In this document: in pieces, positions 25,215-40,908 of the stretch
How the letters are laid out: each line of letters starts with the position of its first letter
How positions within the stretch are numbered: position 1 is the first letter of the stretch
Source: a virus
Virus record (IMG/VR): IMGVR_UViG_3300037586_002089
Span: 1 to 41,261 of that record
Direction: 5' to 3' (one strand)
Length of the DNA stretch: 41,261 nt
Position numbers and translations under genes: made by a program
Notes under the pieces: generated by a model
Database searches by the model: none
Seen by the model: only the letters and a program-made list of their open reading frames with translations
Told to the model about the DNA's origin: nothing

Positions 25215-26308
25215 ATATTTTAATACCAATGGCAGGAGCGGGTTCAAGATTTAAAATAAAAGGGTATGATATACCTAAACCATTAATTAAAGTAGGTAAT
25301 AAATTAATGGTTGAGTTGGCAGTAGAGTCTTTAGATATTGAAGGTCAGTACATATTTATCGTTAGAAAATATGAAAATGAAGAACATAATATTTTATTGA
25401 AAGAAACTTTAAATAAAATTACAGACAAACCTATAATTTACGAAGTAGATTATTTAACTGAAGGAGCTACCGCTACGTGTTTATTAGCGAAAGAATCAAT
25501 AAATAATAATGAACCGTTAATTATAACAAATTGCGATCAAGTTTTAGATTGGTCATCAGATAAATTTATAAATTCAATAAATGAAGAAGATGATGGAGTA
25601 GTTATAACTTATGATTCAAGTAGTCCTAAAAATAGTTATATAAAAGTAGATGAAGATGGGTTAGGTTTAGAGTTAGCAGAAAAAAAACCTATAAGTAATT
25701 TAGCGTTAATTGGATTACATTATTGGAAACACGGTAAAGATTTTATAGTTTCAGCTGAAGAACTGATTAGTAGAGGTAATAAATCTGGAAATGAATATTA
25801 TATAGCACCAACATATAATATATTAATTGAAAATAGTAAAAAAATAAGAAATTATCATTTTGAAAGTGGACAATATCATTCTTTAGGTTCACCTGAAGAT
25901 TATAAAAATTATTTGGGAAAACAAAGAGAATATAAACAAAATAAACCGAAAACTATAATATGTGATTTAGACGGAACAATACTAAAACATTCACATAGAT
26001 TTTCTGTTGTTACACGTAATAAAGCAGAAATATTACCAGGTGTGTTAGAAAAATTTGATGAATGGGATTCAACAGGATGTAGGATTATTTTAATGACCGG
26101 TAGGAAAGAAAGTGCACGAGAAATGACAGAAAAAGATTTAAGAGAATTAGGGTTGTGTTGGGATCAATTAATAATGAATGTAGGTAATGGTGCGAGAGTT
26201 TTAATTAATGATAAATTAACAAAATGGTTACCAGATAGAGCTATAAGTGTTAATGTAGAAACAGATAAAGGATTTGAAACTATTGATTGGGAGGAGATTG
26301 GAATATAA
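25211..26308 (+). CDS. Nucleotidyltransferase-HAD phosphatase fusion
   Basis: A 365 aa two-domain protein. Residues 1 to about 235 are a sugar-phosphate nucleotidyltransferase: MNILIPMAGAGSRFKIKGYDIPKPL is the nucleotide-binding loop and IITNCDQ (about 105-110) the metal-binding site. Residues about 246-365 are a HAD-superfamily domain: IICDLDGTIL (D252, D254) and RIILMTGRK as motif II. It should activate a sugar phosphate to an NDP-sugar and dephosphorylate a related compound. Similar pairs occur in capsule and heptose pathways. The gene at 26650 has the two domains in the reverse order. ATG overlaps the preceding stop. Confidence 0.88.
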   Translation: MNILIPMAGAGSRFKIKGYDIPKPLIKVGNKLMVELAVESLDIEGQYIFIVRKYENEEHNILLKETLNKITDKPIIYEVDYLTEGATATCLLAKESINNNEPLIITNCDQVLDWSSDKFINSINEEDDGVVITYDSSSPKNSYIKVDEDGLGLELAEKKPISNLALIGLHYWKHGKDFIVSAEELISRGNKSGNEYYIAPTYNILIENSKKIRNYHFESGQYHSLGSPEDYKNYLGKQREYKQNKPKTIICDLDGTILKHSHRFSVVTRNKAEILPGVLEKFDEWDSTGCRIILMTGRKESAREMTEKDLRELGLCWDQLIMNVGNGARVLINDKLTKWLPDRAISVNVETDKGFETIDWEEIGI

Positions 26309-26637
26309 TGGATATATTTAAACTTAAAGATATGTTTAAGGGTTGGTTTGTTGGAGACTTTGAACCTACAGCATATAAAACAAAAGATTTTGAAGTTTGT
26401 TATAGAGTACACCCAAAAGGTGAACAATGGGAATGGCATTATCATAAAGATATTACTGAAATAAATTTATTAGTTAGTGGTAAAATGATAATGCAGGGGA
26501 AAGAGTTAAACACAGGAGATATTTTTATTGTTAAACCATATGAAATAGCAGACCCAGATTTTTTAGAAGATTGTGGTATTATATGTGTAAAAACTCCGAG
26601 TAAAGTCGGTGATAAAGTAGTATTTAAAGTTGATTAA
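26308..26637 (+). CDS. Small cupin protein
   Basis: A 109 aa protein (ATG 26308, with GGAGGAG at 26290-26296, TAATG overlap). The EWHYHKDITEINLLVSGKMIMQGKELNTGDIFIVKPYEIADPDF stretch is a single cupin barrel: H-x-H, E, then the G(D)xxxxP turn of motif 1 and the second motif further on. Cupins in sugar clusters serve as epimerases, isomerases or metal-bound enzymes, but this one has no clear subfamily. Placed between the two nucleotidyltransferase/HAD genes, so it likely acts on the same sugar. Confidence 0.75.
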   Translation: MDIFKLKDMFKGWFVGDFEPTAYKTKDFEVCYRVHPKGEQWEWHYHKDITEINLLVSGKMIMQGKELNTGDIFIVKPYEIADPDFLEDCGIICVKTPSKVGDKVVFKVD

Positions 26638-26649
26638 AGGGGAGTTATT

Positions 26650-28065
26650 GTGGATAAAAATAATGTAAATACAACACGTATTAAATTAATAATTTTTGAT
26701 TTAGATGGAGTATTAGTTGACGCAAGAGAAATACATTATGAAGCGTTGAATAAAGCGTTATCACATATAAATCAAAAATATATTATAAATCGAGATGAAC
26801 ATTTGTCAACATACGACGGATTATCAACTACTAAAAAATTAAATATGCTTACAACAAATAAAGGACTACCTGAAAACTTACATGATACTGTATGGAAATT
26901 AAAACAAGAAATGACCTTAAAGATTATTGATGGATTTAATGTAGATGATAGAATCAGAGGTATACTAAGAAGTTTAAAATCAGAAGGTTATAAATTAGCA
27001 TGTGCAACTAATTCAATTAGAGAAACGGCTAAATTACAATTAATTAGAAAAGGTTTTTTTGAATATATTGATTTTATGTATTCTAATCAGGATGTAAAAA
27101 ATTCAAAACCAAATTCAGAAATGTATTTAAAGTGTATGATTAAGGCGGAAGTAAATCCAAATGAAACTGTAATTGTAGAAGATTCACATATAGGTAGAAA
27201 AGGTGCTTTAAGTAGTGGAGCAATTTTATGTTCTGTAAAAAATACTGAAGATGTTAGTTATGATAAAATTAAAAAAGTAATTAAGACAACGGATAGAGAT
27301 GGAGAAATTAAACCTAAGTGGCAAGGAGATACAATGAATGTATTAATACCGATGGCAGGAGCCGGAAAACGATTTGAAAAAGTTGGTTATAGTTTTCCAA
27401 AACCATTAGTTGATGTAGAAGGAAAACCCATGATACAACTGGTAGTGGAAAGTTTAAACATAGAAGCTAAGTATATTTATGTTGTACAAAAAAAACATTA
27501 TGAAAAGTATAATTTAAAACATTTATTAAACTTAATTTCACCCAACTGTGAAATTGTACAGATAGATGGAATAACTGAAGGTGCGGCGTGTACAACATTA
27601 TTAGCAGAAAAATATATTAATAATGATGAACCATTATTAATGGCAAATTCAGACCAGTATCTTGATTGGAATAGTAATGAGTTTATGTATTCTATGATAG
27701 CAGATGATATTGATGGAGGGATATTAACATTTAAATCAACACACCCGAAATGGAGTTTTGCAAAACTTGATGATAACGGATACGTTGAAAGAGTAGCTGA
27801 GAAAGACCCAATTAGTAATATAGCTACAGTTGGTGTATATTTTTGGACAAGAGGTTCTGATTATATAAAATATTGTAAACAAATGTTAGATAAAGATGTT
27901 AGAACTAATAATGAATTTTATGTATGTCCTGTTTATAATGAAGCAATAGAAGATGGTAAAAAGATAAAGACATATCATATTGATAGAAAACAGATGTGGG
28001 GATTAGGAACACCAGAAGATTTAGATAGATATGTAAAAGAATTTGAGAGTAGGAATGCAACTTAA
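26650..28065 (+). CDS. HAD phosphatase-nucleotidyltransferase fusion
   Basis: A 471 aa two-domain protein. Residues 1 to about 225 form a HAD domain of the beta-phosphoglucomutase/phosphatase type: IIFDLDGVLVDAREIHYEALN (D17, D19), LACATNSIRETA (motif II), a KPNSEMYLKCM helix with motif III lysine, and VIVEDSHIG (motif IV). Residues 229-471 form a nucleotidyltransferase with MNVLIPMAGAGKRFEK (the loop) and LLMANSDQYLDW. This half is a close paralogue of the N-terminal half of the protein at 25211. The start is GTG 26650 with GGGGAG upstream. An ATG at residue 229 has its own AAGGAG, so the second domain may also be made separately. Confidence 0.88.
   Translation: MDKNNVNTTRIKLIIFDLDGVLVDAREIHYEALNKALSHINQKYIINRDEHLSTYDGLSTTKKLNMLTTNKGLPENLHDTVWKLKQEMTLKIIDGFNVDDRIRGILRSLKSEGYKLACATNSIRETAKLQLIRKGFFEYIDFMYSNQDVKNSKPNSEMYLKCMIKAEVNPNETVIVEDSHIGRKGALSSGAILCSVKNTEDVSYDKIKKVIKTTDRDGEIKPKWQGDTMNVLIPMAGAGKRFEKVGYSFPKPLVDVEGKPMIQLVVESLNIEAKYIYVVQKKHYEKYNLKHLLNLISPNCEIVQIDGITEGAACTTLLAEKYINNDEPLLMANSDQYLDWNSNEFMYSMIADDIDGGILTFKSTHPKWSFAKLDDNGYVERVAEKDPISNIATVGVYFWTRGSDYIKYCKQMLDKDVRTNNEFYVCPVYNEAIEDGKKIKTYHIDRKQMWGLGTPEDLDRYVKEFESRNAT
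27323..27336 (+). promoter_or_regulatory. Internal ribosome binding site and start within the HAD-NT fusion
   Basis: AAGGAG (27323-27328) lies 5 bases before the in-frame ATG 27334, exactly where the nucleotidyltransferase domain begins (MNVLIPMAG). It would let a separate 243-residue nucleotidyltransferase be translated from the same message. The same MN(I/V)LIPMAG start is the true N-terminus of the sister gene at 25211. It may be the relic of two genes that were fused by loss of a stop codon. Confidence 0.5.
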
Positions 28066-28795
28066 ATTAGAAGATATATTAAATCACAAAAAATTAGATT
28101 ATTCATTAGAAGTTGTAGAATCTATCAATAAAGATATGATTGGTAGAGTAGCTATGAATGCTGAACACGGAGCAACTCATATTTTATATTTAGTTAAAGA
28201 GTTGATGGGAGATACGTGTAAGAAAGTTTTAGATATTGGAACTTTATGGGGCGGTTCTATGTTAACAATGATGCAGACTGTATACAAATCACATTATGTT
28301 TCAATTGATTATTTTAATGGTTACTATAAAAGTAGAACAGGACTTACAGAAGACCCTGTAAGTGGGGGGACTAACACAATTTCTTCAGTAAATAGTAATG
28401 TAGTAAAACATAATAAACATAAACATTTATATAATCTGATAGAAGGTTCATCACACGATTCATCAGTTATTGAAAAAGTTAATTCTATATTAGGGAGTTC
28501 AATAGATTTATTATTTATAGACGGAGACCATACAAAAAAGGGTGTAATACAAGATTGGGATGACTATGCTAAACTTGTAAGTGAAGGTGGTATAGTAATA
28601 TTTGATGATTATTGGTCAGGAAATTTAGCAGAACACGCATGGGTACATAAAGCTCATTGGACTGAACCTAAAGCGATGGATATAGTGGGGGCTTATGAAG
28701 AAATAAAAACACGTTCAGATTTTTTAACAGAGTGGACAGAAGTAGGATTGATAAAAGATAAAAAAATAGTACAAAGGAAAAAAGATGGAATCTAA
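28055..28795 (+). CDS. Class I SAM-dependent methyltransferase
   Basis: A 246 aa protein of the Methyltransf_24/CmcI-like group. KKVLDIGTLWGGSMLTMMQT is motif I (SAM-binding GxxxGG), LLFIDGDHTKKGVIQDWDDY is the acidic-metal region (D-H), and GGIVIFDDYWSG is the product-release segment. Such enzymes methylate sugar hydroxyls or polyketides; here a sugar is likely. ATG 28055 is chosen over TTG 28043 because of the GAGAG and AGG sequences just upstream; it overlaps the previous gene by 11 bases. Confidence 0.84.
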   Translation: MQLKLEDILNHKKLDYSLEVVESINKDMIGRVAMNAEHGATHILYLVKELMGDTCKKVLDIGTLWGGSMLTMMQTVYKSHYVSIDYFNGYYKSRTGLTEDPVSGGTNTISSVNSNVVKHNKHKHLYNLIEGSSHDSSVIEKVNSILGSSIDLLFIDGDHTKKGVIQDWDDYAKLVSEGGIVIFDDYWSGNLAEHAWVHKAHWTEPKAMDIVGAYEEIKTRSDFLTEWTEVGLIKDKKIVQRKKDGI

Positions 28796-29768
28796 ATTTA
28801 CATTAGAATATCTAAAATCTATAGAGAGAGATGAATTTATACATTGGACTGGTGTTCATGTCGGACCAGGTACGGGTAAATGGGGATTTAATATAGGACA
28901 TATTTGGAATGATAAATTAAAATCATTTTTAAAAGAAAATAAAAAAGTTAAATTCATTACTGATACACAAGGAGATTCACCTAATTGGATGAGTAGATAT
29001 TTTGAAGATTATGATATTATTTTGGGTACAAATGATGATGCGGGTATATTAAAAGTAACAGATAAACAATCAACTGGAGTTAAAGGTGTACTAATTGATA
29101 ATATAAATTCATTTTTAGCAAAAACTAAAAGAACTGTAAATTTAGATGTGGAAGATTTATATGTGGTAACTTCACCAGAACCACACGGAGGTAATTTTCC
29201 TGAAATATATGATATATACAATACACCGAAAAATATAAAAAGAATATATAGTAAAGGTTTGATGTGTGTTGATAATGATAAATTTAGACCCGTACCAAAC
29301 GGTTTATGTAATATTACAATCGAACTAATAAGAGATAAAGTATTATTTAATGAAAAAAAGAGAGATGATAATTTAGTCGTCTTTAATTTCAGATTAGGTA
29401 CTAACGCGGAACGAGATGAAATTGTGTACTATTTCCGAGATAAAAGTTGGGCAACTGAAGGTGTAGGTAGACAGTTTGAATATTTGAGAGAAATGTATCA
29501 TCATAAATTTGCAATCTCACCTGAGAGTTGTTGTGCGGATTCACATAGAACTTGGGAAGCTATGTACATTGGTGTTATACCTATTGTTCAAAAGACACTC
29601 GGTATGAGTTGGTACGATGATTTACCTATATTACAAGTTGATGATATATGTAGTCTTACAGAAGAATTTTTAGAAGACAAATATAAAGAAATGATGGATA
29701 AAGAATATAATTTAGAAAAGTTAAAAATGTCATATTGGTTGAATCAAATAAGTGAAGATATTAAATAA
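28785..29768 (+). CDS. Exostosin-like glycosyltransferase
   Basis: A 327 aa protein with C-terminal homology to the exostosin (GT47-like) family: HKFAISPESCCADSHRTWEAMYIGVIPIVQK (about 247-277) with a donor-binding RTWEAMYIG helix, then WYDDLPILQVDDICSLTEEFLEDKY. The N-terminal half is a GT-B acceptor domain (KVKFITDTQGDSPNWMSRYFEDYDIILG). It lies in a run of transferases. Overlap with the methyltransferase is 11 bases. Sugar specificity not deducible. Confidence 0.78.
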   Translation: MESKFTLEYLKSIERDEFIHWTGVHVGPGTGKWGFNIGHIWNDKLKSFLKENKKVKFITDTQGDSPNWMSRYFEDYDIILGTNDDAGILKVTDKQSTGVKGVLIDNINSFLAKTKRTVNLDVEDLYVVTSPEPHGGNFPEIYDIYNTPKNIKRIYSKGLMCVDNDKFRPVPNGLCNITIELIRDKVLFNEKKRDDNLVVFNFRLGTNAERDEIVYYFRDKSWATEGVGRQFEYLREMYHHKFAISPESCCADSHRTWEAMYIGVIPIVQKTLGMSWYDDLPILQVDDICSLTEEFLEDKYKEMMDKEYNLEKLKMSYWLNQISEDIK

Positions 29769-30493
29769 TGGTAGAAAAAAATTACTATAAAGATAAAAAA
29801 GAAAGATGTTTTGTAGTTGGTACAGGTACTTCATTAAATGAATTAGATTTATCATTATTAAAAGATGAAGTTACAATAGGTATTAATTTAATTTTACTTA
29901 AAGAAGATTTTACACCAGATTATCTCTGTATAGCAGATACTACAGTTATGGAAAACCATTATCATGCTATTTTTAATGATAAAATGAATGACGGCTGGTA
30001 TGTGATATGTAACAGATGTATGATTGCAGATAAATATTCGAACGGACACGGTAATTGTCATAACAATCCTGGTTCTACTTGTAGAGGAATTAATTTAGAT
30101 AGTAAATATGAAAATATTTATATAGTTAAACACAATGAAAAAAGTGGTATTCATATAAATCATATGGAAAATAGAGAAACGTTATTAAAAACAGATGAGT
30201 ATTATATAGATACAAATTTAGAAACAATTACAGCGTATGGAGGAAGCACTATAGATAACTTAGCTATACCTTTAGCAGTATACTTAGGATTTAAGGATAT
30301 TTATTTGTTAGGTTGTGATGGTGGTTGGGACCACTTTTATGATAGTGTAAGAAAAGAAGGAAAACGAGAATGGATAAATTATAATCACGTTAAAAAAGAA
30401 CTTGACAAGCATAGCATAAATTTAATAAATTGTGATGCAACAAACACCTTTCCTGAACTTGAATATCAAAAATTAGAGGATATTTTAAAATGA
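29768..30493 (+). CDS. MptE/DUF115- or GT42-like glycosyltransferase
   Basis: A 241 aa protein. CFVVGTGTSLNELDLSLLKDEVTIGINLILLKEDFTPDYLCIAD is the start of the MptE-like/DUF115 and GT42 sialyltransferase-type fold (GxGxSL, then xGxN and PDY.x.D). IDNLAIPLAVYLGFKDIYLLGCDGGWDHF is the second half-signature. In polysaccharide clusters such proteins may be sugar (sialic-acid-type) transferases; in archaea MptE is a pterin pyrophosphokinase. The next genes include a CMP-sugar synthetase-like protein, so a CMP-sugar transferase is a fair guess. The stop overlaps the YjbQ gene as ATGA. Confidence 0.65.
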   Translation: MVEKNYYKDKKERCFVVGTGTSLNELDLSLLKDEVTIGINLILLKEDFTPDYLCIADTTVMENHYHAIFNDKMNDGWYVICNRCMIADKYSNGHGNCHNNPGSTCRGINLDSKYENIYIVKHNEKSGIHINHMENRETLLKTDEYYIDTNLETITAYGGSTIDNLAIPLAVYLGFKDIYLLGCDGGWDHFYDSVRKEGKREWINYNHVKKELDKHSINLINCDATNTFPELEYQKLEDILK

Positions 30494-30942
30494 AAAAAAC
30501 TATTAAAATAAAAACAGATAAACTTTTTACAATACTTACACCTGAAGTTGCTGCGTATGCAAAAGAGTGGGGTAAAAGTGGATTAGTTAATATGTACACA
30601 ACACATACTACTACTTCATTGAGAGTACTTGAAAATGAAACATTGCATCACGCTGATATAAGATTTTGGCTTGATAAATATTTACCAAAACATAAACCAG
30701 AAAATAGAAGATATCTACATGATTTGATATCCTTACGTAATGACGTACCTCAAGGAGAAAGAATTAATGCATACGCTCATATGAGAACACTATTTTTTAA
30801 TACATCAGAAATAGTACCAATTGAAAATGGTGAATTGATGTTGGGTAAGTGGCAAGATATACATTTTATAGAGTTAGATCCAGGTGATGAAGTTTATCCA
30901 CTTCAAGAGAGAACTATTGTTTGTACATTTATTGAAGAATGA
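30490..30942 (+). CDS. YjbQ / UPF0047-family protein
   Basis: A 150 aa protein with the YjbQ signature: NMYTTHTTTSLRVLENE (HTT motif), INAYAHMRTLFFNTSEIVPIENGELMLGKWQDIHFIELDPGD (the H and the GxWQ-I motif). The family has a trimeric fold, and some members complement thiamine-phosphate synthase mutants, but the main role is unclear. It sits in the middle of sugar genes with ATGA overlaps on both sides, so it is co-translated with them; a metabolic or repair function for the sugar pathway is inference only. Confidence 0.88.
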   Translation: MKKTIKIKTDKLFTILTPEVAAYAKEWGKSGLVNMYTTHTTTSLRVLENETLHHADIRFWLDKYLPKHKPENRRYLHDLISLRNDVPQGERINAYAHMRTLFFNTSEIVPIENGELMLGKWQDIHFIELDPGDEVYPLQERTIVCTFIEE

Positions 30943-31607
30943 AATTTTTTATAATAATAAAAGAAGAATCAGAAAGATTACCCAATAAAAACTTTCTTAC
31001 TTTAGGTGGTATACCATTATATAGGCATTTGTTAAATGAGTTGGCACTCGAAGATGTATATATAGATACAGATAGTGATAGAATATTTAATGAATGTAAA
31101 ACTTTAACTAATATAACTTGTTATAAAAGAGATTCAAGATTTGTTGAGATGGAGAATAATATTGAATTTGGAGTAAGTCCGGTACTATTTATGATTGAAA
31201 ACTTTTTAAATAAATTTGTTGTTGATGAAGATGAAATAATAATAACACCTCATGTAACATCACCTTTTATAAAGTTAAAAACTATACTAAAAGCTACTGA
31301 AATGTCAACTAAAGGTTATGATACAGTATGTGCGTGTACAGAACATAAAGAATTTACATATTTCAAAGGACAACCGGTAAATTTTAATCCTGAAGAAGTT
31401 CCTAAAACACAGAATTTAGAACCAGTTATAATGGGTAATGGAGCTTTCTTTATATTCACGAAAAAAGAATTTATGAAGAATAAGAATAGAACGAGTGAAA
31501 ATAATTATTTTTATCCGATACAATTACCTGAGAGTATAGAGATAGATACTTTTGAAGATTTTAAACTAGCAGAGTTATATAGTGAAAGAAACAATAGAAT
31601 TAGTTGA
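30939..31607 (+). CDS. CMP-sugar synthetase-like cytidylyltransferase
   Basis: A 222 aa protein of the NeuA/KdsB type. It begins FFIIIKEESERLPNKNFLTLGGIPLYRHLL, in which ERLPNKN is the family's CTP-binding loop, and has DVYIDTDSDRIF and EIIITPHVTSPFI (QxTSP-like) with GNGAFFIFTKKEF as later elements. It would activate a keto-acid sugar (a sialic, ulosonic or similar acid) with CTP. No NeuB-type synthase is in the window, but the next gene is a DRE-TIM aldolase which might supply the keto-acid. ATGA overlap with YjbQ. The usual N-terminal R of the family is present in SERLPNKN. Confidence 0.82.
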   Translation: MKFFIIIKEESERLPNKNFLTLGGIPLYRHLLNELALEDVYIDTDSDRIFNECKTLTNITCYKRDSRFVEMENNIEFGVSPVLFMIENFLNKFVVDEDEIIITPHVTSPFIKLKTILKATEMSTKGYDTVCACTEHKEFTYFKGQPVNFNPEEVPKTQNLEPVIMGNGAFFIFTKKEFMKNKNRTSENNYFYPIQLPESIEIDTFEDFKLAELYSERNNRIS

Positions 31608-32556
31608 TGTTACATTAAGAGACGGTGGATTTACTTGTGATTTCGATTGGCCAATAGAATTTGCACAAGAGTATTATAATTTAATGAGTGAATTAGATGT
31701 TAGTTATGTAGAGATGGGTTATTGGAAACAAACAGCGAAAAGTAAGAATAGATTTTTTAATTTAGATATAGATACAGTCAAAAAAGTTACAGGTGAACAA
31801 GGTAAAAATAATATATCTGTTATGATTGACTATTCTTATTGTAGTAAAGATTTAAACGACTATCCTACAGATAATCAAAATGAAATTAAAATGATTAGAA
31901 TGACTTGTAGAAAAGATATGGTTAAAGAGGGATTTGAATTTGCCGTTAAACTAAAAAAACATACTGGTTTAGTTATAGCATTTAATCTTTTTAATACGAC
32001 CAATTATATAGATGATGAACTCAATTCTGCACTTGATATTGTTCTTGATTCTGATTTTGATATTATAGGTTTTGCAGATACACACGGACATTTAAATTTA
32101 CATAGAGATATAAAAAGATATGAACAATTTTTCAAGAGGATAATAGATTCTGGAAAGAAAACTTGTTTTCATCTACACAATCATACTGGTAAAGCTTATA
32201 TGAATTATATTAAGTGTCTTGAAAGTCCTTATGTAGATTACTGTGATACATCAGTAATGTCTCTTGGAAAGGGTGCCGGTAATTTAAAATTAGAGAATGT
32301 ACTTGATGATGATAAAGCATTGAAATTGAATGAGTTTATTCACAAATATTATGAAGCCTTATTTAAGAAAACAGTAAGTCCATATCTTATGGTAACTGGA
32401 AGATATGGTATTACAGACCACTATGCAACACAAGCTAGAAAATTAAATGTACCAATGAGTAAGTTTATTCTATTTTGTGATTTAGTAAAAGGATTAGATA
32501 GAGATAATTTTAATAAAGAATTGTTGTTACTATATTATCATGGAGTGGAAATATAA
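31582..32556 (+). CDS. DRE-TIM metallolyase / aldolase (HMGL-like)
   Basis: A 324 aa TIM-barrel enzyme. LVDVTLRDGGFTCDF is the DRE/LRDG motif of the HMGL-like and 4-hydroxy-2-oxovalerate aldolase superfamily, and CFHLHNHTGKAY is the metal-binding HxH pair. GFADTHGHLN, with the HGH, lies on the same barrel. It would make or break a C-C bond with pyruvate or an acyl-CoA. In LPS and capsule clusters a related 'aldolase catalytic domain' protein often sits by CMP-sugar synthetases. GTG 31582 overlaps the previous gene by 26 bases. The substrate is unknown. Confidence 0.83.
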   Translation: MKETIELVDVTLRDGGFTCDFDWPIEFAQEYYNLMSELDVSYVEMGYWKQTAKSKNRFFNLDIDTVKKVTGEQGKNNISVMIDYSYCSKDLNDYPTDNQNEIKMIRMTCRKDMVKEGFEFAVKLKKHTGLVIAFNLFNTTNYIDDELNSALDIVLDSDFDIIGFADTHGHLNLHRDIKRYEQFFKRIIDSGKKTCFHLHNHTGKAYMNYIKCLESPYVDYCDTSVMSLGKGAGNLKLENVLDDDKALKLNEFIHKYYEALFKKTVSPYLMVTGRYGITDHYATQARKLNVPMSKFILFCDLVKGLDRDNFNKELLLLYYHGVEI

Positions 32557-33251
32557 TGAAGAATGTTTTAATCACAGGAATGAGTGCTGGATTAGGGAAA
32601 GCTTTAGCTGAAAAGTACTCTGAGACAGGATATACCGTATCTGGATTGAGTAGAAGCGAAGTTAAAGGGTATAATCATATTGAATGTGATCTTATATGGA
32701 AACATCAAATTCCTGAAAAATTACGAACTTTGCTAAAAGATGTAAGTGAAATTGATGTGGTTATCCTTAATGCGGGTGTTCTCGGTCAAATTGAATTTTC
32801 AAATAAAGTAGTTTTACCCGAACTAGAAAGAGTACTTGATATTAATACATTATCTAATAAAATGATTATTGATTATTTAATTAATAAGAAAATTGAAGTT
32901 AAACAAGTAGTAGCAATATCTTCGGGTGCAGCAATTAATACATATACAGGTTGGGGAAATTATTCTATTTCTAAAGCAGCACTTAATATGATGATGAAAG
33001 TTTATGCAATTGAAAATCCTAAAACACATTTTTTATCACTTTCACCAGGACCAGTAAATACTTCAATGCAAGATTTTATATGTGAAGAAGTAGATGGGGA
33101 GAAATTTGAATGGAAAAAAAAGTTTGTAGAATTAAGAGAAAATAATGAAGCTCCTTCTGCAGATGAGGCTGCAGAGAAGATTTATGAGTTATTACCACAA
33201 TTAAAAGAAGAACTTGAAAGTGGTAGTTTTATAGATGTGAGGGAGTTATAG
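32556..33251 (+). CDS. Short-chain dehydrogenase/reductase
   Basis: A 231 aa SDR. KNVLITGMSAGLGKALAEKY is the NAD(P)-binding TGxxxGxG, ILNAGVLG is the NAG motif, and AISSGAAINTYTGWGNYSISKAALN carries the catalytic Ser and YSISK (Tyr-x3-Lys). All catalytic residues are present. SLSPGPVNTSM matches the PG motif. It would reduce a keto group, probably in the CMP-sugar branch, given that the aldolase and CMP-sugar synthetase are just upstream. Starts on the last base of the previous stop (TAATG). Confidence 0.88.
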   Translation: MKNVLITGMSAGLGKALAEKYSETGYTVSGLSRSEVKGYNHIECDLIWKHQIPEKLRTLLKDVSEIDVVILNAGVLGQIEFSNKVVLPELERVLDINTLSNKMIIDYLINKKIEVKQVVAISSGAAINTYTGWGNYSISKAALNMMMKVYAIENPKTHFLSLSPGPVNTSMQDFICEEVDGEKFEWKKKFVELRENNEAPSADEAAEKIYELLPQLKEELESGSFIDVREL

Positions 33252-33704
33252 ATGATTTTTATAGCACATAGAGGAAATACAAACGGTAAAGAGTCAAAAC
33301 TTGAAAATGGTCAAGGATATTGTGAAGAAGCTATTGAACAAGGTTTTGATGTAGAGATTGATGTTCATTGGTATGAGGGAATATTTTGGACTGGACATGA
33401 TAGACCTCAATATAGAGTTAGAACAGATTTTCTAAAAAGAAAAGAAGTTTGGTGTCACGCTAAAGATATTCAGGTATTATATGAACTACAAAAGATAGAA
33501 GCTCATTGTTTCTTTCATCAAAAAGATGATGTTACATTGACTTCACACGGTTATTTATGGACATATCCAACGTACCCATTAACAGAAAAATCAATATGTG
33601 TATTACCAGAAATACAAAGAATAAGTAAGACAGCTTATAGTAACTGTGCAGGTATTTGTAGTGATTATATAATAAAAGAAAAAAATAAAATGGAGATAGA
33701 TTAA
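33252..33704 (+). CDS. Short GDPD-like phosphodiesterase
   Basis: A 150 aa protein with the glycerophosphodiester phosphodiesterase catalytic motif: FIAHRGN (HR), then AIEQGFDVEIDVHWYEGIFWTGHDRP (E-x-D and the second His). The usual family length is about 240-300 aa, so this is a trimmed version of the TIM barrel; the later part (CFFHQKDDVTLTSHGYLWTYP) is still recognisable. It may hydrolyse a phosphodiester on a sugar carrier or a glycerol-phosphate unit. It follows the SDR with a 0-base gap and is part of the same module. Confidence 0.74.
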   Translation: MIFIAHRGNTNGKESKLENGQGYCEEAIEQGFDVEIDVHWYEGIFWTGHDRPQYRVRTDFLKRKEVWCHAKDIQVLYELQKIEAHCFFHQKDDVTLTSHGYLWTYPTYPLTEKSICVLPEIQRISKTAYSNCAGICSDYIIKEKNKMEID

Positions 33705-33705
33705 T

Positions 33706-34179
33706 ATGAAAGAAAAAGAATATGAAGATGCTTTTATAACTAAAGAGTTGACAATTCATTCAGATGATAGAGGATTTTTAATGGAAATATTGAGAATGGA
33801 TGATCCTATTTATAAAAAATTCGGTCAAGTATATATCACTTGCTGCGAACCAGGTTTTGTAAAAGCTTGGCATTATCATAGAATAAAAACAGATTATTTT
33901 ACTTGTATTAATGGTACAGCTCGAATTGTTGTATTTGATGATAGAGATGGTTCACCGACATACGGTGAATTAAAAGAATATATTGTAAACAAAGATAATC
34001 CAGTATTAGTAAAAATACCAACAGGTTGTTATCACGGTTTTGAAGCTGTAGGTAAAGAGGATGCTTATATTATTAGTATTACAACTGAACCGTATCATCA
34101 TGAAGAACTCGATGAATACAGAATACCGTTTAATGATGAATTAATACCATTTGAATGGGATGGTAAGACAGGATTTTAA
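33706..34179 (+). CDS. dTDP-4-keto-sugar 3,5-epimerase-like cupin (RmlC/EvaD-like)
   Basis: A 157 aa cupin related to dTDP-4-dehydrorhamnose 3,5-epimerase. ITKELTIHSDDRGFLMEI is the N-terminal start with the conserved DDRG, KAWHYHRIKTDYFTCINGTARIVVFD carries the catalytic His region, and IPTGCYHGFEAVG, then PFNDELIPFEWDG, are the later conserved parts (nDp-I-p-W). In the pathway it would invert C3 and/or C5 of a 4-keto-6-deoxy NDP-sugar. It heads the four-gene deoxy-amino-sugar group. Weak ribosome binding site GGAGA about 9 bases upstream. Confidence 0.87.
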   Translation: MKEKEYEDAFITKELTIHSDDRGFLMEILRMDDPIYKKFGQVYITCCEPGFVKAWHYHRIKTDYFTCINGTARIVVFDDRDGSPTYGELKEYIVNKDNPVLVKIPTGCYHGFEAVGKEDAYIISITTEPYHHEELDEYRIPFNDELIPFEWDGKTGF

Positions 34180-35076
34180 ATGACTTCTTATGAAGGATTA
34201 AATATATTAATAACAGGTAGTACAGGTTATATAGGTTCAACTTTAGTAAAGTCGTTTAATTCCATTGATTGTAATTTAATTATTTCTACCGGTGATGTAT
34301 CTAAAAAAGAAACTTGGAATGATATTATAAAAGATGATATTGATATTATTTTTCATTTAGCAGCTGTAGAAGTAGAACATGAAACACCAGAAAGAGATTT
34401 AAATGTAAATTCAGTATCAGTTTTACATATGTTACAAACTTGTGTTGAGAAAAGATGTAATCCAAAAATTATTTTTGCAAGTTCAACTAATGTATTTGGA
34501 ATAGTAAATGAAGATAAAGTAAATGAAAACACAAAAGCAAAACCAGCAGCAGAATGGTCAGCACACAAACTACTTTCAGAACATTATTTAAAAATATATA
34601 ACGAAAAGTTTGGATTGAAAAGTATTATTTTACGATTACCAAATATCTACGGTCCTGTTCGAGATAAAGATATAAATAGAAAAACGTCAGGTTCATTGAT
34701 TGCCAGAGTCATAAAATATGGAATTGAACATAAACAATTAAAGTTATTTAAGAATAGAAATTGTTATAGAGATTATGTTTATATTGATGATATAGTTAAA
34801 GCTTTTATAAAGACAGGTTTAGCTAATGATGATATTTTTGATGGTAGATTTTTTGTAGTAGGAAGTAATAAATTAACAACTATATCAGATATGTGGAACA
34901 CTATAGCCTCTGTACTAACAGATGTTACAGTCACGGAAGATGATACTATTGATTTGAATCCCATTGAAATGCGTAGTTATGTAGGAGATTATAGGTTATT
35001 AGAAGAAGTAATTGGTTGGCAACCAAGAGTTAATTTACAAGATGGAGTTAAGTTAACAGTTGAGAGTTTAAAATGA
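34180..35076 (+). CDS. NAD-dependent NDP-sugar epimerase/reductase
   Basis: A 298 aa extended SDR. NILITGSTGYIGSTLVKSF is the NAD(P)-binding TGxxGxxG and IIFASSTNVFG the catalytic Ser/Thr region. RLPNIYGPV and RDYVYIDDIVKAF are typical substrate-binding motifs. The active-site YxxxK is WSAHK here: W126 replaces the Tyr while K130 is kept. That change should weaken ordinary dehydrogenase/reductase chemistry. The gene is placed as the 4-keto-reductase or epimerase step of the deoxy-amino-sugar group. It overlaps the dehydratase start by 4 bases. Confidence 0.85.
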   Translation: MTSYEGLNILITGSTGYIGSTLVKSFNSIDCNLIISTGDVSKKETWNDIIKDDIDIIFHLAAVEVEHETPERDLNVNSVSVLHMLQTCVEKRCNPKIIFASSTNVFGIVNEDKVNENTKAKPAAEWSAHKLLSEHYLKIYNEKFGLKSIILRLPNIYGPVRDKDINRKTSGSLIARVIKYGIEHKQLKLFKNRNCYRDYVYIDDIVKAFIKTGLANDDIFDGRFFVVGSNKLTTISDMWNTIASVLTDVTVTEDDTIDLNPIEMRSYVGDYRLLEEVIGWQPRVNLQDGVKLTVESLK

Positions 35077-35840
35077 AACAAGATAAATATTTAAAACAGT
35101 TAAATAAATATAAAAAACATATTTTAGGTTTAAATATGACAAGTAAAATTGATGAAAATCAATTAGAGTTTCATTTTGAAACTTTAAAAGATTGGTCAAC
35201 TTTTCATACATTTGAAGATATAGAAAAATGGTATCAAAGTGTACTTGATAAAAAAGAAATGGTTATTGAAGAAATATCTTTGAAAGACTGTAGTGAATGG
35301 ATTTTTGATGGAGATATTATATATCATACAAGTGGTGAATTTTATTCAGTTCAAGCACTTAGAGTACACACTAAAATTAGAGAAGCAAAAAGAGGATGGG
35401 ACCAACCCCTTTTTAAACAAGTTGGTTTAGATGGTGGTATACTCGGGATTGTTAGAAAAAGATTTGAAGGAATACCACATTATTTATTGGAAGCCAAATC
35501 AGAACCGGGTAATGTAAATTTAGTTCAAATTAGTCCAACATTACAAGCTACATTCAGTAATATAAACGCAGCTCATTTAGGTAATGTTCCAAATTATTTA
35601 AATATTTTTCAGAATGCGGAAAAAGTAGGTAAAGTTTTATTGAAGAAATGGCAATCTGAAGACGGTGGTAGATTTTATAGTAAACGAAATTTGAATATGA
35701 TAGTAGAAGTAGAAGAAGAGTATAATATTACTTTTAAAAATGATAATTTTATTTGGATGAGTATGTATCAAATAAAACAATGTTTAGAAAAAGAATCTTG
35801 GGTAGCTAATTCAGTTAGAACTATCATATCACACGTATAG
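35073..35840 (+). CDS. NDP-hexose 2,3-dehydratase, single-repeat
   Basis: A 255 aa member of the NDP-hexose 2,3-dehydratase family (EvaA/TylX3 group), which removes the C2 hydroxyl of NDP-4-keto-6-deoxyglucose. The signature lies at HTSGEFYSVQALRVHTK, RGWDQPLFKQ, and AKSEPGNVN (141-149) with QISPTLQAT (152-160). The known antibiotic-pathway enzymes have two such repeats in about 470 aa; this gene encodes only one. It would be active as a dimer, if at all. It overlaps the previous gene by ATGA and precedes the aminotransferase by 9 bases. Confidence 0.93.
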   Translation: MKQDKYLKQLNKYKKHILGLNMTSKIDENQLEFHFETLKDWSTFHTFEDIEKWYQSVLDKKEMVIEEISLKDCSEWIFDGDIIYHTSGEFYSVQALRVHTKIREAKRGWDQPLFKQVGLDGGILGIVRKRFEGIPHYLLEAKSEPGNVNLVQISPTLQATFSNINAAHLGNVPNYLNIFQNAEKVGKVLLKKWQSEDGGRFYSKRNLNMIVEVEEEYNITFKNDNFIWMSMYQIKQCLEKESWVANSVRTIISHV

Positions 35841-35849
35841 GAGACAATT

Positions 35850-36980
35850 ATGATAAAAGTATGGGATTATAAAAAAGAATATGAAGCATTAAGAGAAGAA
35901 ATTTTAGATGCAGTAGATAACGTGTTTAGTGGAGGAACATTGGTTTTTGGTCCAAGAGTAGAAGAGTTTGAAGAAAAATTTTCTAAATATTGTGATTCAA
36001 AGTTTGGTATAGGAGTAGGTAATTGTACAGATGCATTGTACATTGCTTTAAAAGCTATGAATATCGGTACAGGAGATGAAGTTATTACTGTATCAAACAC
36101 AGCAGTTCCTACTGTAACAGCTATTGTAATGACTGGAGCAACACCTGTATTTGTTGATGTTGATAGATATTTTTTAATGGATGTAGTAGAATTACAGAGT
36201 GCAATACATAATGAAACTAAAGCAATTATACCAGTCCATTTGTTTGGACAAATGTGTGATATGGGTATTATTATGAATACTGCTCACGAGAATAATTTAC
36301 GAGTTATTGAAGATTGTGCACAATCACACGGTGCTACTTATAACGGTAGAAAAGCAGGTTCAATAGGTGATGTTGGTTGTTTTTCTTTTTATCCAACTAA
36401 AATATTTGGTGCTTATGGTGATGGTGGTTTTATTACAACTAATGATGAGAAGTTATATGATAAGATGAATCGTATGAGATTTTTTGGAATGGAAAGAAAA
36501 AAAATGTCATCAGGTCATTGGAATGGTAAATATTATGCATTAGAACATGGACCAGATACTTGTAATTCTAGGTTAGATGAAGTACATGCAGCAATACTAC
36601 TTAAAAAACTTAATTATATAGATGAATGGATAGATAGAAGAAGACAGATTGCAGAAAGATATAATGAAGAATTATCAGATACAGAATTAGTTTTACCTGA
36701 AGAATGTTACTACAATAGACATGGATATTATATATATGTGGTTGCTCATCCTGATAGGGATAGAATAATGAAAGATTTAACTGAAAGAGACATACATTTA
36801 AATATAAGTTACCCGTGGCCAGTTCATACTATGATAGGATATGAATATTTAGGTTGGAAAGATGGAGATTTACCAATAACTGAAAAATTAGCTAATGAAA
36901 TATTTTCATTACCAATGTATCCTACATTAACTGATGATGAACAAACAGAAGTTATTAAAGTTTTGAAAGAGATTGTATGA
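35850..36980 (+). CDS. DegT-family NDP-sugar aminotransferase
   Basis: A 376 aa PLP enzyme. The lysine is K184 in SFYPTKIFGAYGDGG, with D155 in IEDCAQSHGA contacting PLP. The start (LVFGPRVEEFEEKFSKYCDSKFGIGVGNCTDALYIALKA) and the ATPVFVDVD strand are those of sugar 3-aminotransferases (QdtB/FdtB/EvaB type). Following a 2,3-dehydratase, it would put an amino group on C3 to give a 2,3,6-trideoxy-3-amino sugar. GGAG about 10 bases before the ATG. Its stop overlaps the next gene as ATGA. Confidence 0.93.
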   Translation: MIKVWDYKKEYEALREEILDAVDNVFSGGTLVFGPRVEEFEEKFSKYCDSKFGIGVGNCTDALYIALKAMNIGTGDEVITVSNTAVPTVTAIVMTGATPVFVDVDRYFLMDVVELQSAIHNETKAIIPVHLFGQMCDMGIIMNTAHENNLRVIEDCAQSHGATYNGRKAGSIGDVGCFSFYPTKIFGAYGDGGFITTNDEKLYDKMNRMRFFGMERKKMSSGHWNGKYYALEHGPDTCNSRLDEVHAAILLKKLNYIDEWIDRRRQIAERYNEELSDTELVLPEECYYNRHGYYIYVVAHPDRDRIMKDLTERDIHLNISYPWPVHTMIGYEYLGWKDGDLPITEKLANEIFSLPMYPTLTDDEQTEVIKVLKEIV

Positions 36981-37888
36981 AATTAGCTGTAGTAATTAAT
37001 GGGTGGCACTTTCCACTAAAATTTTATCAACAGGTAAGAACACAAAAAATACCGAAAGATTGGGAAGTTGATTATTTTTGTGTTTCTCATAGAGAACCTG
37101 AAGTATCTGATATAGAGAAACAAAAATTTTTATCTCAATTAAGTAATGGTACTTTAGAAAAAATAGATAAAATTTTATACGAAAAAATAGCTACTGTTAA
37201 TTATCTTGAAGAAAATGGTTGGCATTATATATTAGAACCAAATACTTGTGGTGATTGGGCTATTACAAATCAATGGTTAGAAAAAAATAACTATAAGAAT
37301 TATGATATGCTTTTATTTTCACATGATGATAATTTCGTTTTTAACGATAATTTGTTTATTGATGTATTAGATAATAAAATTGAAACTTTATTTAGAAATG
37401 ATTATTCTATGAATGATTTACCAGAATTTAAAAACGCAGGACCGGGTGATTATTCAGAAGTTAAAAATGATGGTGAGTGGTTAATATTATCAAATGGTAT
37501 AGTAAATATGACTGGTAAAGTTCGTGGGTCATTTGATTTCTTTAAACCAGAAATAATTGAAAAAATGGGTGGTAAATTTGATATAGATAATATTGAATTA
37601 GATAGAACAGGTGAAACTGACAATGCAGGTATAGGTTATTATGGTACTACGTACCCAACAGGTGGTCTTAGTATAAAAGATTGGGAAAAACCAGTTCAAA
37701 ATTTTTATGGGTTCATGGTAAGAAATGGTTATTTAGATACAATTAGATATATTTCACCAGCATATAGAGTTAGTAAATATTGTTTAGAAGGTGAACGAGG
37801 TTTATTATCAAATAGAGCTACACCTCAAGGTTCATTATATCATTCAACAGTAGAAAGATTATTAGAAGAAGGGTTGTTAAATGTTTAG
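36977..37888 (+). CDS. Putative glycosyltransferase (GT-A-like)
   Basis: A 303 aa protein without a family I recognise. KLAVVINGWHFPLKFYQQVR is a Rossmann-like start, and MLLFSHDDNFVFNDN supplies an acidic DDN pair in the position of the GT-A metal site; MNDLPEFKNAGPGDYSE and SIKDWEKPVQNFYGFMVRNGYLD are further conserved-looking parts. The context (just after the amino-sugar genes) suggests it attaches that sugar to its acceptor. Overlaps previous gene as ATGA and the next by 8 bases. Uncertain. Confidence 0.55.
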   Translation: MKLAVVINGWHFPLKFYQQVRTQKIPKDWEVDYFCVSHREPEVSDIEKQKFLSQLSNGTLEKIDKILYEKIATVNYLEENGWHYILEPNTCGDWAITNQWLEKNNYKNYDMLLFSHDDNFVFNDNLFIDVLDNKIETLFRNDYSMNDLPEFKNAGPGDYSEVKNDGEWLILSNGIVNMTGKVRGSFDFFKPEIIEKMGGKFDIDNIELDRTGETDNAGIGYYGTTYPTGGLSIKDWEKPVQNFYGFMVRNGYLDTIRYISPAYRVSKYCLEGERGLLSNRATPQGSLYHSTVERLLEEGLLNV

Positions 37889-38624
37889 TTATAACGAATT
37901 CAAAAATATTATCAATTTAATTAAAGTAAATCTACCTATTGTTGATTTTGCTGATGTAAATGGTGATACAACATCATTTTGTGTACTTAGACATGATATA
38001 GAATTTTCAGTTGATAGAGCTCTTAAAATGGCAAGAATAGAAGCTGATGAATTAGGTGTAGTTTCTACTTATACTGTTCAACTAAGAAATAATACATACA
38101 ACGCATTATCAGAAAAAAATATTAAGGCTGTTCAAGAAATTCGTGATTTGGGACATAAGATAGGATTACATCAAAATCCACCAAATTTAGGAGCTGAAAA
38201 AATAACAAAAAATATTTTGAAAGATATTGAAGTGCTAGAACATTATTATGGATTTAAAATAGATAGATTTGCATTTCATAGACCTAATGTAAATCCACAA
38301 TTATTATCTTGGTATGTGAAAATTGAAGAGTTGATTAATTGTAATGGTGAATTGTTTTTTGAATATGTAGAAGGACCTCTACCAGAAGATTTAAATGTAA
38401 CTTATTTATCAGATTCAAATCATCAATGGAAATTCGGACACCCATTGAAATTAAATTTTAATAAAGTTAAAAAACTTCATGTATTAATGCATCCATATTC
38501 ATGGTCAGAATATGGATATTCAAATTATGGTAATTTTGTTTCGTTAACACAGGAGAGAAACGAAGAACTATTAGATTCAATGAATAGTGAAACAAGTACT
38601 TTTCCACAGGAGTTGTTAAATTGA
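37881..38624 (+). CDS. Polysaccharide deacetylase-like protein
   Basis: A 247 aa protein with the (beta/alpha) deacetylase pattern: FCVLRHDIEFSVDRALKMA is motif 1 (HD), followed by LGHKIGLHQNPP (the GxH motif) and FAFHRPNVNP, and LHVLMHPYSWSEYG as the C-terminal His motif. It would remove an N- or O-acetyl group from a sugar. No signal peptide, so it acts on cytosolic precursors. Overlaps the previous gene by 8 bases; the next gene begins at TTG overlapping its stop. Confidence 0.78.
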   Translation: MFSYNEFKNIINLIKVNLPIVDFADVNGDTTSFCVLRHDIEFSVDRALKMARIEADELGVVSTYTVQLRNNTYNALSEKNIKAVQEIRDLGHKIGLHQNPPNLGAEKITKNILKDIEVLEHYYGFKIDRFAFHRPNVNPQLLSWYVKIEELINCNGELFFEYVEGPLPEDLNVTYLSDSNHQWKFGHPLKLNFNKVKKLHVLMHPYSWSEYGYSNYGNFVSLTQERNEELLDSMNSETSTFPQELLN

Positions 38625-39988
38625 AAAAAAATGTTGTTTGGTGGCCCGCAGTAGTAAATACAGAACATACAGAAAAGTATGGGGGTTATGAATATTTTCA
38701 ATATTCAAGAAACACGTGGGAATACTGGTGTGAACGAAATGACTGTTTATTTGTACCGTTTACTGAACCAGTAGAAAAAGATTTATTTAAGTATAGAGTA
38801 AATTGGCAAAAGGCTATTTTCTTATTCGATGAACTTGAAAGAAGAAATATAGAATATGATCAGGTAGCACTGGTTGATAGTTCTTTTATGATTAGATGGG
38901 ATACACCTAACTTTTTCGAGCTAACAGATAGAAGATTCACTGCGTGGAGAGATATGGATAATATGAGGTGGATATATGAAAGTATTCAAGGATATAAAGA
39001 TATATTCGGAGGTTTTGAATTGGATATGACTAAGTACGTAAACTCTGGATTTATGGTGTTTAATGAAAAACATAAAGATTTATTCAATAACTTTAAACAG
39101 TTTTATATAGATAACATAGAAGAATTTGTTAAACTACAAGATGAAGTTGTAAAGAAAGGTACAGAACAAACACCTATGAATTATTGGTTACAGACGAATA
39201 ACATTGATATAAATACAGATTTACCTTTACCATTTAAATTAACACATTTACAAAGGAAGGAATTATTTAATTTTAACTGGCAACTTGATGAAGATAAGAC
39301 ACCTTTTTTTATAAAGTATGGATATAACTGTAGCTTTAATGGCATACCTAAAGATAATAGAACTAAGTTAATGCAACAAACATGGGATATGATAAAAAGT
39401 AGGTACAATTATGATGAAATAAAATATGATAAAATTTTAGATTTAATGCCACATAAAGATACAGCAAAATACACTACGAGTAGAAAATTTAAGAGAGATA
39501 TTTTAAAAACTTTTACTCATAAGAAATACAAAGATTTAACAATGATAGAATTAGGTAGTTGTCAGGGTAATTCAACTGTAGTTTATAGTAATGTATTTAA
39601 AAAAGTATATGGAGTTGAAAAAGATAGTTGGAATATAGAACAAGCTGAAAAGAAATGTAAAGATAGAGATAATGTAGAATTTATACAAAAAGACATTTAT
39701 ACAGAAGAATGGGATTTTCCACAGGTAGATGTTGTGATGATAGATGCGGGTCATACATACGAACACGTGAAACACGATATACCAAAAGTTATGGATTATT
39801 TTAATAAACCAATTATCATTATGGATGATTATGGTAATCCGAAAGTTGAAATTCAAAAAGCTATTTATGAAATTGTTACTACAGGTGCTGTATCATTAGA
39901 TACGTTTATAGGTGAGAAACGAGGTTTTAAAACAGCAGCTGGTTGGACTATGAATGACAGAGAAGGTTGTATCTTAAATTTAAAATGA
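38621..39988 (+). CDS. Glycosyltransferase-methyltransferase fusion
   Basis: A 455 aa two-domain protein. The N-terminal half (to about residue 270) is a GT-A-like domain, with YDQVALVDSSFMIRWDTPNFFEL, where the D-x-S stands for the DxD, and NSGFMVFNEKH. The C-terminal half is a class I SAM methyltransferase: MIELGSCQGNSTVVYSNVF (motif I), VVMIDAGHTYEHVKHDI and IIIMDDYGNP. It should transfer a sugar and methylate it, or work on the same acceptor. The start is TTG 38621 with AGGAG about 8 bases upstream, overlapping the preceding stop (TTGA). The N-terminal half is related to the partial gene at 40898. Confidence 0.82.
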   Translation: MKKNVVWWPAVVNTEHTEKYGGYEYFQYSRNTWEYWCERNDCLFVPFTEPVEKDLFKYRVNWQKAIFLFDELERRNIEYDQVALVDSSFMIRWDTPNFFELTDRRFTAWRDMDNMRWIYESIQGYKDIFGGFELDMTKYVNSGFMVFNEKHKDLFNNFKQFYIDNIEEFVKLQDEVVKKGTEQTPMNYWLQTNNIDINTDLPLPFKLTHLQRKELFNFNWQLDEDKTPFFIKYGYNCSFNGIPKDNRTKLMQQTWDMIKSRYNYDEIKYDKILDLMPHKDTAKYTTSRKFKRDILKTFTHKKYKDLTMIELGSCQGNSTVVYSNVFKKVYGVEKDSWNIEQAEKKCKDRDNVEFIQKDIYTEEWDFPQVDVVMIDAGHTYEHVKHDIPKVMDYFNKPIIIMDDYGNPKVEIQKAIYEIVTTGAVSLDTFIGEKRGFKTAAGWTMNDREGCILNLK

Positions 39989-40908
39989 GTAATATAAAAA
40001 GTCATATTAATTCTACTAAATTTTTACTAAAAGATATGTGTTATTCTGTTGATAACAACTTTATTTATATGAAACCAGCGAAAACAGCTGGAACTACAAT
40101 TTATAGACGTATGTTTCGATTAGACGTAGTTAAAGAAGGTACAGCTGGTGAAGGTGCACGATTACCACCATATAAACAGGAACCTAAAAAACAAATTGTA
40201 AAGGGTATGGGATTAGTTCCAGATTGTAGTTGTCAAAAAGACGATAAAGTAAAGTTTGATACTTGGTGGAGTAACTTGACAAATGAAGAAATTAAAAATG
40301 ATTATTTTAAATTTGTTTTTGTTAGAAATCCGTTTGATAGATTAGTTTCTGCGTACAGCCATCTGCGAGAAGATATAACATGGTCTTCTTATAGGAAAAC
40401 ACCCATGTATAGTGGTGTCCGTGACCCGCGGGTACCGGGCGTAGGGAGTGACGCTGACGAATATTTAATTAAAACACGTGCTAATAATTTTAATAAAATC
40501 GCATCTAAAGCGCTATCATTACAAGAAAGGAAGATGTGGCAAACACGTGATAGTCGTTATTATAGTTCACCAGATTTTAAGACATTTGTAAAAAGAAATT
40601 TACTTGATAGTAAAGGTTATCCTTCAAATTCACATTGGTTGAATCAAAGTTATTATGCAGAAGTAGATGAAGAACTATTTGTAGATTTTATAGGAAAGTT
40701 TGAAAATTTAAATAAAGATTTTAAAGTGTTGTGTGATAAATTAAATTTGGAGTATGAGTTATTAAAAATTCATGGTTATACTGGATTACCAACAGTTCGT
40801 TTTGGTGGAAGTCATAGTAATTATAAAACTTATTATGATGATGAAACAATAGAATTAGTTTCAAATGTATATCGTAGAGATTTGGAGTTATTTGATTATG
40901 AATACTAA
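39985..40908 (+). CDS. Sulfotransferase family 2-like protein
   Basis: A 307 aa protein (ATG 39985, ATGA overlap). YMKPAKTAGTTIYRRMF (from about residue 29) is the 5'-phosphosulfate binding loop (K-x-x-x-T-x-T), and FVFVRNPFDRLVSAYSHL (from about 111) is the 3'-phosphate motif of PAPS-dependent carbohydrate sulfotransferases. GTGACP-like regulatory parts are not seen. It would add a sulfate to a glycan. The region at 40411-40460, encoding SGVRDPRVPGVGSDADEYL, is GC-rich (34 of 50) in an AT-rich genome. The reading frame is intact through it. Confidence 0.87.
   Translation: MSNIKSHINSTKFLLKDMCYSVDNNFIYMKPAKTAGTTIYRRMFRLDVVKEGTAGEGARLPPYKQEPKKQIVKGMGLVPDCSCQKDDKVKFDTWWSNLTNEEIKNDYFKFVFVRNPFDRLVSAYSHLREDITWSSYRKTPMYSGVRDPRVPGVGSDADEYLIKTRANNFNKIASKALSLQERKMWQTRDSRYYSSPDFKTFVKRNLLDSKGYPSNSHWLNQSYYAEVDEELFVDFIGKFENLNKDFKVLCDKLNLEYELLKIHGYTGLPTVRFGGSHSNYKTYYDDETIELVSNVYRRDLELFDYEY

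Follow-up and report, generated by a model that had tools for sequence, protein, structure and literature searches.

The IMG/VR virus record IMGVR_UViG_3300037586_002089, analyzed here over its full length of 41,261 bases (the window; 29% G+C throughout), carries four consecutive sugar-nucleotide genes, among them a homolog of the nucleoside diphosphate (NDP)-hexose 2,3-dehydratases. Judged from its gene content the record is a fragment of a T4-like phage, the setting assumed in the initial annotation of this DNA; PHROGs matches in its first 12 kb identify a replication core of T4-like type that includes SSB (gp32), UvsX, an exonuclease, a DnaB-type helicase, a family B DNA polymerase and a clamp loader. 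Glycosyltransferases and sugar genes are present from position 15402 onward. The four genes, correctly described as consecutive in that annotation, lie on the same strand with spacings of 0, −4 and +9 nt between successive members (thus no gap above 9 nt), within a much longer run of glycan genes:

21837–40908, + strand: glycan and sugar-nucleotide gene run of 23 genes with gaps of at most 12 nt, which holds the four-gene cassette
33706–34179, + strand: RmlC-like cupin of 157 amino acids, putative deoxythymidine diphosphate (dTDP)-4-keto-6-deoxyhexose (3,)5-epimerase (PF00908; His56, Tyr130)
34180–35076, + strand: extended short-chain dehydrogenase/reductase (SDR) of the NAD-dependent epimerase family, 298 amino acids, GxxGxxG present, role uncertain (PF01370; W126, no TDE motif)
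35073–35840, + strand: single-domain NDP-hexose 2,3-dehydratase homolog of 255 amino acids, corresponding to half of EvaA (PF03559; Glu144, Glu196)
35850–36980, + strand: DegT/DnrJ/EryC1/StrS pyridoxal phosphate (PLP) aminotransferase of the sugar C3 type, 376 amino acids (PF01041; K184)

The same phage is represented by a second contig, IMGVR_UViG_3300006927_002472, which differs at 8 of 16,189 aligned bases and has the same four genes, so the cassette is not a local assembly artefact. All four proteins pass the curated Pfam cut-offs (PF00908, dTDP_sugar_isom, E=5e-17; PF01370, Epimerase, E=4e-36; PF03559, Hexose_dehydrat, E=2.8e-59; PF01041, E=7e-108), and chance or mis-assembly as the source of the cassette is ruled out by the two contigs together with these strong profile scores. 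The second contig reaches 9 kb beyond the window, and the two together (about 50 kb in all) represent an incomplete genome.

The product of 35073–35840 has PF03559 as its only Pfam match, at 200 bits against a cut-off of 25 and over profile positions 3–202 of 203, and by these measures it is a genuine NDP-hexose 2,3-dehydratase homolog. The initial annotation had named it a 2,3-dehydratase and had proposed a Hexose_dehydrat profile search and a structure prediction as checks; both gave positive results, and profile, catalytic residues and fold all support the name. The sole PDB match by sequence is EvaA, the dTDP-4-keto-6-deoxyglucose 2,3-dehydratase of chloroeremomycin synthesis (PDB 4J7G/4J7H). 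EvaA is built of two similar domains, of which pocket A is active and requires E139 and E190 (mutation abolishes activity) and pocket B has been described as an inactive remnant of gene duplication (PMC8987622). Both halves of EvaA align onto one and the same segment of the phage protein, which is about 37% identical to domain 1 and about 27% identical to domain 2. EvaA E139 and E190 align with phage E144 and E196, and these two residues are invariant in 14 of 14 single-domain proteins and 13 of 13 first domains. An AlphaFold2 run with 14 aligned rows gave a pLDDT of 66, and addition of the first domains (22 rows) raised it to 90.1 with a pTM of 0.87; the resulting EvaA-like model has EvaA itself (4j7h) as its top Foldseek match in the PDB (E=1e-14, TM 0.72, 3.0 Å), with Nudix hydrolases (NUDT5 and GDP-mannose hydrolase among them) next in rank. 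The phage protein thus shares with EvaA the PF03559 profile, the Nudix fold, both catalytic glutamates and an EPGN motif, but EvaA has two domains with a vestigial second pocket, whereas the phage protein is a single domain (PF03559 is matched once in the whole record) and belongs to a different clade. It is predicted to dehydrate an NDP-4-keto-6-deoxyhexose at C2.

The neighboring DegT protein retains the invariant PLP lysine (K184), its closest solved relatives include QdtB, DesV and WlaRG, and in a tree with a small reference set drawn from PDB alignments it groups with these C3-aminotransferases (support 100/99), apart from the C4 enzymes ArnB, PerA, WecE and DesI. The tree supports the C3 type proposed for it in the initial annotation and disfavors a C4 role. 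For QdtB and WlaRG, the preceding enzyme is a 3,4-ketoisomerase. In the phage the 3-keto group would be provided by the 2,3-dehydratase instead.

Relatives of the dehydratase in viral contigs were sought with a motif scan and alignment-based scans, the pattern scans of genomes being non-exhaustive. Single-domain relatives were found in three phage loci, called L021, L022 and L004 here (61, 56 and 52% identical, respectively). The pairing of dehydratase and DegT genes is conserved in L022, in the same order and with the same 9-nt spacing (the two proteins are 56% and 75% identical to those of the window), and there a C-methyltransferase gene of TcaB9/EvaC type (PF08484) lies ahead of the pair. 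L004 has a C-methyltransferase (TcaB9 E=1e-73), the dehydratase and then an RmlC gene (PF00908 E=3e-58), with genes for a Gfo/Idh oxidoreductase and a GMD-like protein nearby. In L021 a Gfo/Idh gene comes directly after the dehydratase gene, and the best PDB match of its product is KijD10 (3RBV, E=7.5e-37), a sugar 3-ketoreductase. Two-domain dehydratases turned up separately, in other phage contigs. Jumbo phage contigs of up to 254 kb, in which tail sheath or topoisomerase genes lie beside the locus, have the two-domain enzyme, then a Gfo/Idh gene, then a DegT protein that groups with DesI (97/93), and this compact triad is an independent phage acquisition:

L006:392-3748, L010:1344-4703 and L018:5526-8936, jumbo phage contigs: two-domain 2,3-dehydratase, 3-ketoreductase and DesI-like DegT aminotransferase

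These partners follow a simple chemical logic. The product of a 2,3-dehydratase is a 3,4-diketo sugar; therefore, reduction at C3 leaves C4 for amination, and where a 3-ketoreductase is lacking C3 can be aminated directly. In most loci the gene content matches this rule. Like the jumbo phages, Catenovulum, a gammaproteobacterium and Poseidoniales combine the dehydratase with Gfo/Idh and a C4-type DegT, which in these cellular loci groups with WecE. Both contigs of the window phage lack a Gfo/Idh gene, and its DegT is of the C3 type. The related phages add an EvaC-like C3-methyltransferase and a 3-ketoreductase, which supports the view in the initial annotation that this is a pathway of the antibiotic-deoxysugar kind. 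The PF08484 methyltransferase was found in genomes G002 and G004 and was not found in G000 and G001, the incomplete genomes that represent the window phage and the other contig.

The RmlC-like protein scores 62.5 bits with PF00908 (cut-off 27), far below the RmlC equivalog cut-off with TIGR01221 (49 bits versus 155.75). Its His56 and Tyr130 align with the catalytic His and Tyr of RmlC, and its closest relative (39% identical) is the only RmlC-type gene beside rfbA, rfbB and rfbD in a Peribacillus plasmid; a Priestia cluster is similar. Because its relatives lie beside rfbA-rfbB-rfbD or equivalents in Bacillaceae plasmids and it retains the two residues, a role as a dTDP-4-keto-6-deoxyhexose epimerase is plausible. 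The RmlC/EvaD-like epimerase family named in the initial annotation is upheld, and the link of this protein to the pathway is mainly one of adjacency. The same applies to the SDR gene at 34180: adjacency inside the long glycan operon is the main tie of both to the pathway. When viral contigs were scanned with single-sequence patterns for relatives of these two proteins, the other contig of this phage was the only match.

It is probable that during infection the cassette carries out part of the synthesis of a nucleotide-linked 2,3,6-trideoxy-3-aminohexose. We infer the following route, including its substrate, regiochemistry, C5 and C4 steps, acceptor and biological role. An NDP-4-keto-6-deoxyhexose, probably dTDP-linked, would come from host RmlA/RmlB or from an unseen phage gene. 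The single-domain 2,3-dehydratase would remove water across C2 and C3, with Glu144 and Glu196 as general acid/base, to give an NDP-3,4-diketo-2,6-dideoxyhexose, which the adjoining C3-type DegT should aminate directly at C3. The RmlC-like protein would probably epimerize C5, C4 would be reduced by some SDR, and a glycosyltransferase of the same run could attach the sugar to a glycan on the host surface or virion. The initial annotation had proposed a 2,3,6-trideoxy-3-aminohexose pathway for the cassette as a whole; it appears largely right for the dehydratase and C3 aminotransferase, and less secure in the role of the SDR and the membership of the first two genes. Its model was the TDP-L-epivancosamine pathway (EvaA–E), and EvaA-, EvaB- and EvaD-type genes are indeed adjacent in the window, with an EvaC-type methyltransferase in L004 and L022, but the phage has a single-domain dehydratase, no EvaC found in the window phage and an SDR without the catalytic Tyr.

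Several observations weigh against a complete pathway of this kind. In both contigs the SDR at 34180 carries Trp (W126) at the position of the catalytic Tyr (a distant phage relative has Tyr there), so although its extended SDR family is clear, the EvaE-like reductase role given to it in the initial annotation is doubtful. Lacking the catalytic Tyr and the TDE motif, it was also ruled out as a 4,6-dehydratase. Just one other gene in the vicinity is an obvious ketoreductase candidate, and it is the alternative for the C4 step:

32556–33251, + strand: classical SDR with an intact YxxxK motif (YSISK) (PF00106 E=1e-22)

No convincing RmlA/RmlB or 4,6-dehydratase gene was found in the about 50 kb of the window and its 9-kb extension (an incomplete genome); the initial annotation had remarked on the absence of RmlA/RmlB from the window and suggested that these steps might be supplied by the host; the nucleoside triphosphate transferases of the window are weak as RmlA candidates (about 55 bits versus 320 for TIGR01208). 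The L022 fragment shows no such adjacency of RmlC-like and SDR genes, and gene spacing does not fix the borders of the cassette within the uninterrupted glycan run. Finally, the partner rule is not absolute, as the L030 and L031 loci have a C3-type DegT together with Gfo/Idh.

An alternative is that the cassette does not encode a single pathway: the dehydratase and DegT would then work as a unit, and the RmlC-like and SDR proteins would act on other sugars of the same shuffled glycan island. This is a serious possibility, although not the one we expect. The dehydratase–DegT adjacency alone recurs in L022, and island content varies among L004, L021, L022 and the window, where it forms one run without borders. 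Against this stand the immediate adjacency of the genes (spacings of 0 and −4 nt), the RmlC-type epimerase gene directly after the L004 dehydratase and another within the L030 cluster.

The single-domain form of the dehydratase is also found in cells. A genome scan with a single sequence had given no match, and a scan of 84,980 prokaryote genomes with an alignment of the phage members detected it in Poseidoniales, Pseudomonadales, Sphingopyxis, Novosphingobium, Catenovulum, Actinomarina and an Aenigmatarchaeota genome, 36–48% identical over the alignment. Each of eight cellular genomes tested (8/8) has one PF03559 match, and therefore no second half is encoded elsewhere. The family is absent from 397 other Pseudomonadota and from 144 other genomes of the Poseidoniales phylum and occurs in 6 of 295 other Actinomycetota, in all cases as paired domains in one frame, which suggests that it is rare in the groups surveyed. 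The cellular loci share the dehydratase clade of the phages but usually include a Gfo/Idh 3-ketoreductase and RmlA/RmlB, with a C4-type DegT in L023, L026 and L027. In the Poseidoniales single-cell genome the DegT and dehydratase are fused into one protein of 672 amino acids (L023:8678-10696), and in two bacteria cupin genes lie between RmlA-type and dehydratase genes (L024:1721-2161 and L025:9536-9949, the latter of the FdtA-type 3,4-ketoisomerase family). The nearest relatives of the phage dehydratase are therefore in marine bacterial and archaeal sugar clusters and not in the actinomycete antibiotic clusters to which the initial annotation likened it, nor is it an EvaA ortholog as that comparison implied; it belongs to a single-domain sister lineage that the annotation had not noticed.

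A maximum-likelihood tree resolves three groups: the single-domain proteins (100/98), which come from marine bacteria, archaea and at least four phage contigs, the first domains (97/95) and the second domains (100/98). The four single-domain proteins of phages form one clade (100/97). The motifs EPGN, H168 and KRN (204–206) are common to single-domain proteins and first domains and lost from second domains, and RE (103–104) and GGR (198–200) are common to single-domain proteins and second domains and lost or largely lost from first domains. This distribution suggests that the single-domain form may be the pre-duplication form, which would have kept an ancestral residue set later divided between the halves of EvaA. 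Because the tree is unrooted, this reading is one that we infer. The opposite reading, that the single-domain proteins are EvaA-type enzymes truncated by loss of the second domain, draws on the same lack of a root with respect to the duplication, and on midpoint rooting, which places domain 2 outside; we nevertheless think it unlikely, since the single-domain proteins form one clade outside domain 1, a constraint that joins them (tested with the phage members) to the first domains is rejected (p-AU 0.002), and truncation would require reversals for them to combine RE and GGR of domain 2 with EPGN and KRN of domain 1.

A different substrate, for example guanosine diphosphate (GDP)-4-keto-6-deoxymannose, would make the product a GDP-linked deoxysugar and not a dTDP-linked 3-amino sugar. 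In L004 one gene resembles GDP-mannose 4,6-dehydratase (371 bits, below the cut-off of 415), L021 has a GMD/GalE-like SDR, and no RmlA/RmlB was found in the window phage, but this alternative is improbable given that EvaA and its relatives use dTDP sugars, that the DegT of the window falls with C3 enzymes for dTDP sugars, and that cellular single-domain genes adjoin RmlB/RmlA-type genes, including an RmlB in L030 that passes the TIGR01181 cut-off. Least likely of all is that the island is unused host-acquired cargo or decaying stuffer DNA: W126 of the SDR could be read that way, and a published account of cyanophage lipopolysaccharide (LPS) gene clusters leaves it open whether those are functional or stuffer (PMC3037559), but all genes are open in two contigs, the dehydratase and DegT retain their catalytic residues across phages at 52–75% identity, and the dehydratase recurs independently with chemically sensible partners.

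The glycan run contains other sugar-related genes. The gene directly after the DegT overlaps it by 4 nt:

36977–37888, + strand: candidate transferase with no Pfam or PHROG match

Upstream, 30939–33251 encodes a PseF-like cytidylyltransferase, an HMGL-like aldolase (with a single weak match among 50,697 phage records) and the classical SDR listed above in succession, possibly a separate and unrelated route to a cytidine monophosphate-activated compound. Two nucleotidyltransferase/HAD-phosphatase fusions (25211–26308 and 26650–28065) have opposite domain orders and transferase parts about 45% identical. The phage has two further DegT copies, 86% identical to each other, at 21837–22970 in the window and L042:4603-5733 in the second-contig extension; the latter is followed by a PseB-like SDR of the uridine diphosphate (UDP)-GlcNAc 4,6-dehydratase type, and these two look like a separate UDP-sugar route. 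A sulfotransferase-family gene (39967–40908) and an adenosine phosphosulfate (APS)-kinase-like gene (L042:157-684, in the extension) are also present, and the phage glycan may be sulfated.

Virus-borne sugar-nucleotide gene islands are already known, among them the LPS gene clusters of the T4-like cyanophages P-SSM2 and S-SSM7 (PMC3037559) and the rare amino-sugar pathways of Megavirinae giant viruses (PMC10117803), but no 2,3-dehydratase is reported there in the accessible portions of these two papers. Neither form of the enzyme was found in 50,697 phage records or in PHROGs, none was found among predicted viral structures (the best matches are ordinary Nudix proteins at about 10% identity), and a literature search whose coverage excluded most subscription papers found no phage 2,3-dehydratase. 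The cassette would place in phages an enzyme class characterized from antibiotic gene clusters. Taken broadly, we would put a little short of an even chance on the view that an overlooked but widespread single-domain family is the living pre-duplication form of EvaA, a homodimer with complete active sites, and the hub of an exchangeable deoxysugar toolkit of T4-like phages (with a C3-aminotransferase, 3-ketoreductase or C3-methyltransferase as partner), that jumbo phages gained the two-domain form separately, and that antibiotic-type sugars are made for the phages' own glycans. Since features split between the halves of EvaA seem to be combined in the single-domain enzymes, these would allow the published idea of the second EvaA pocket as a duplication remnant to be tested directly. 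That the phage islands swap partner enzymes while staying consistent with the chemistry suggests that selection acts on the sugar itself; possible uses of such a sugar include changing host receptors, blocking superinfection or coating the virion.

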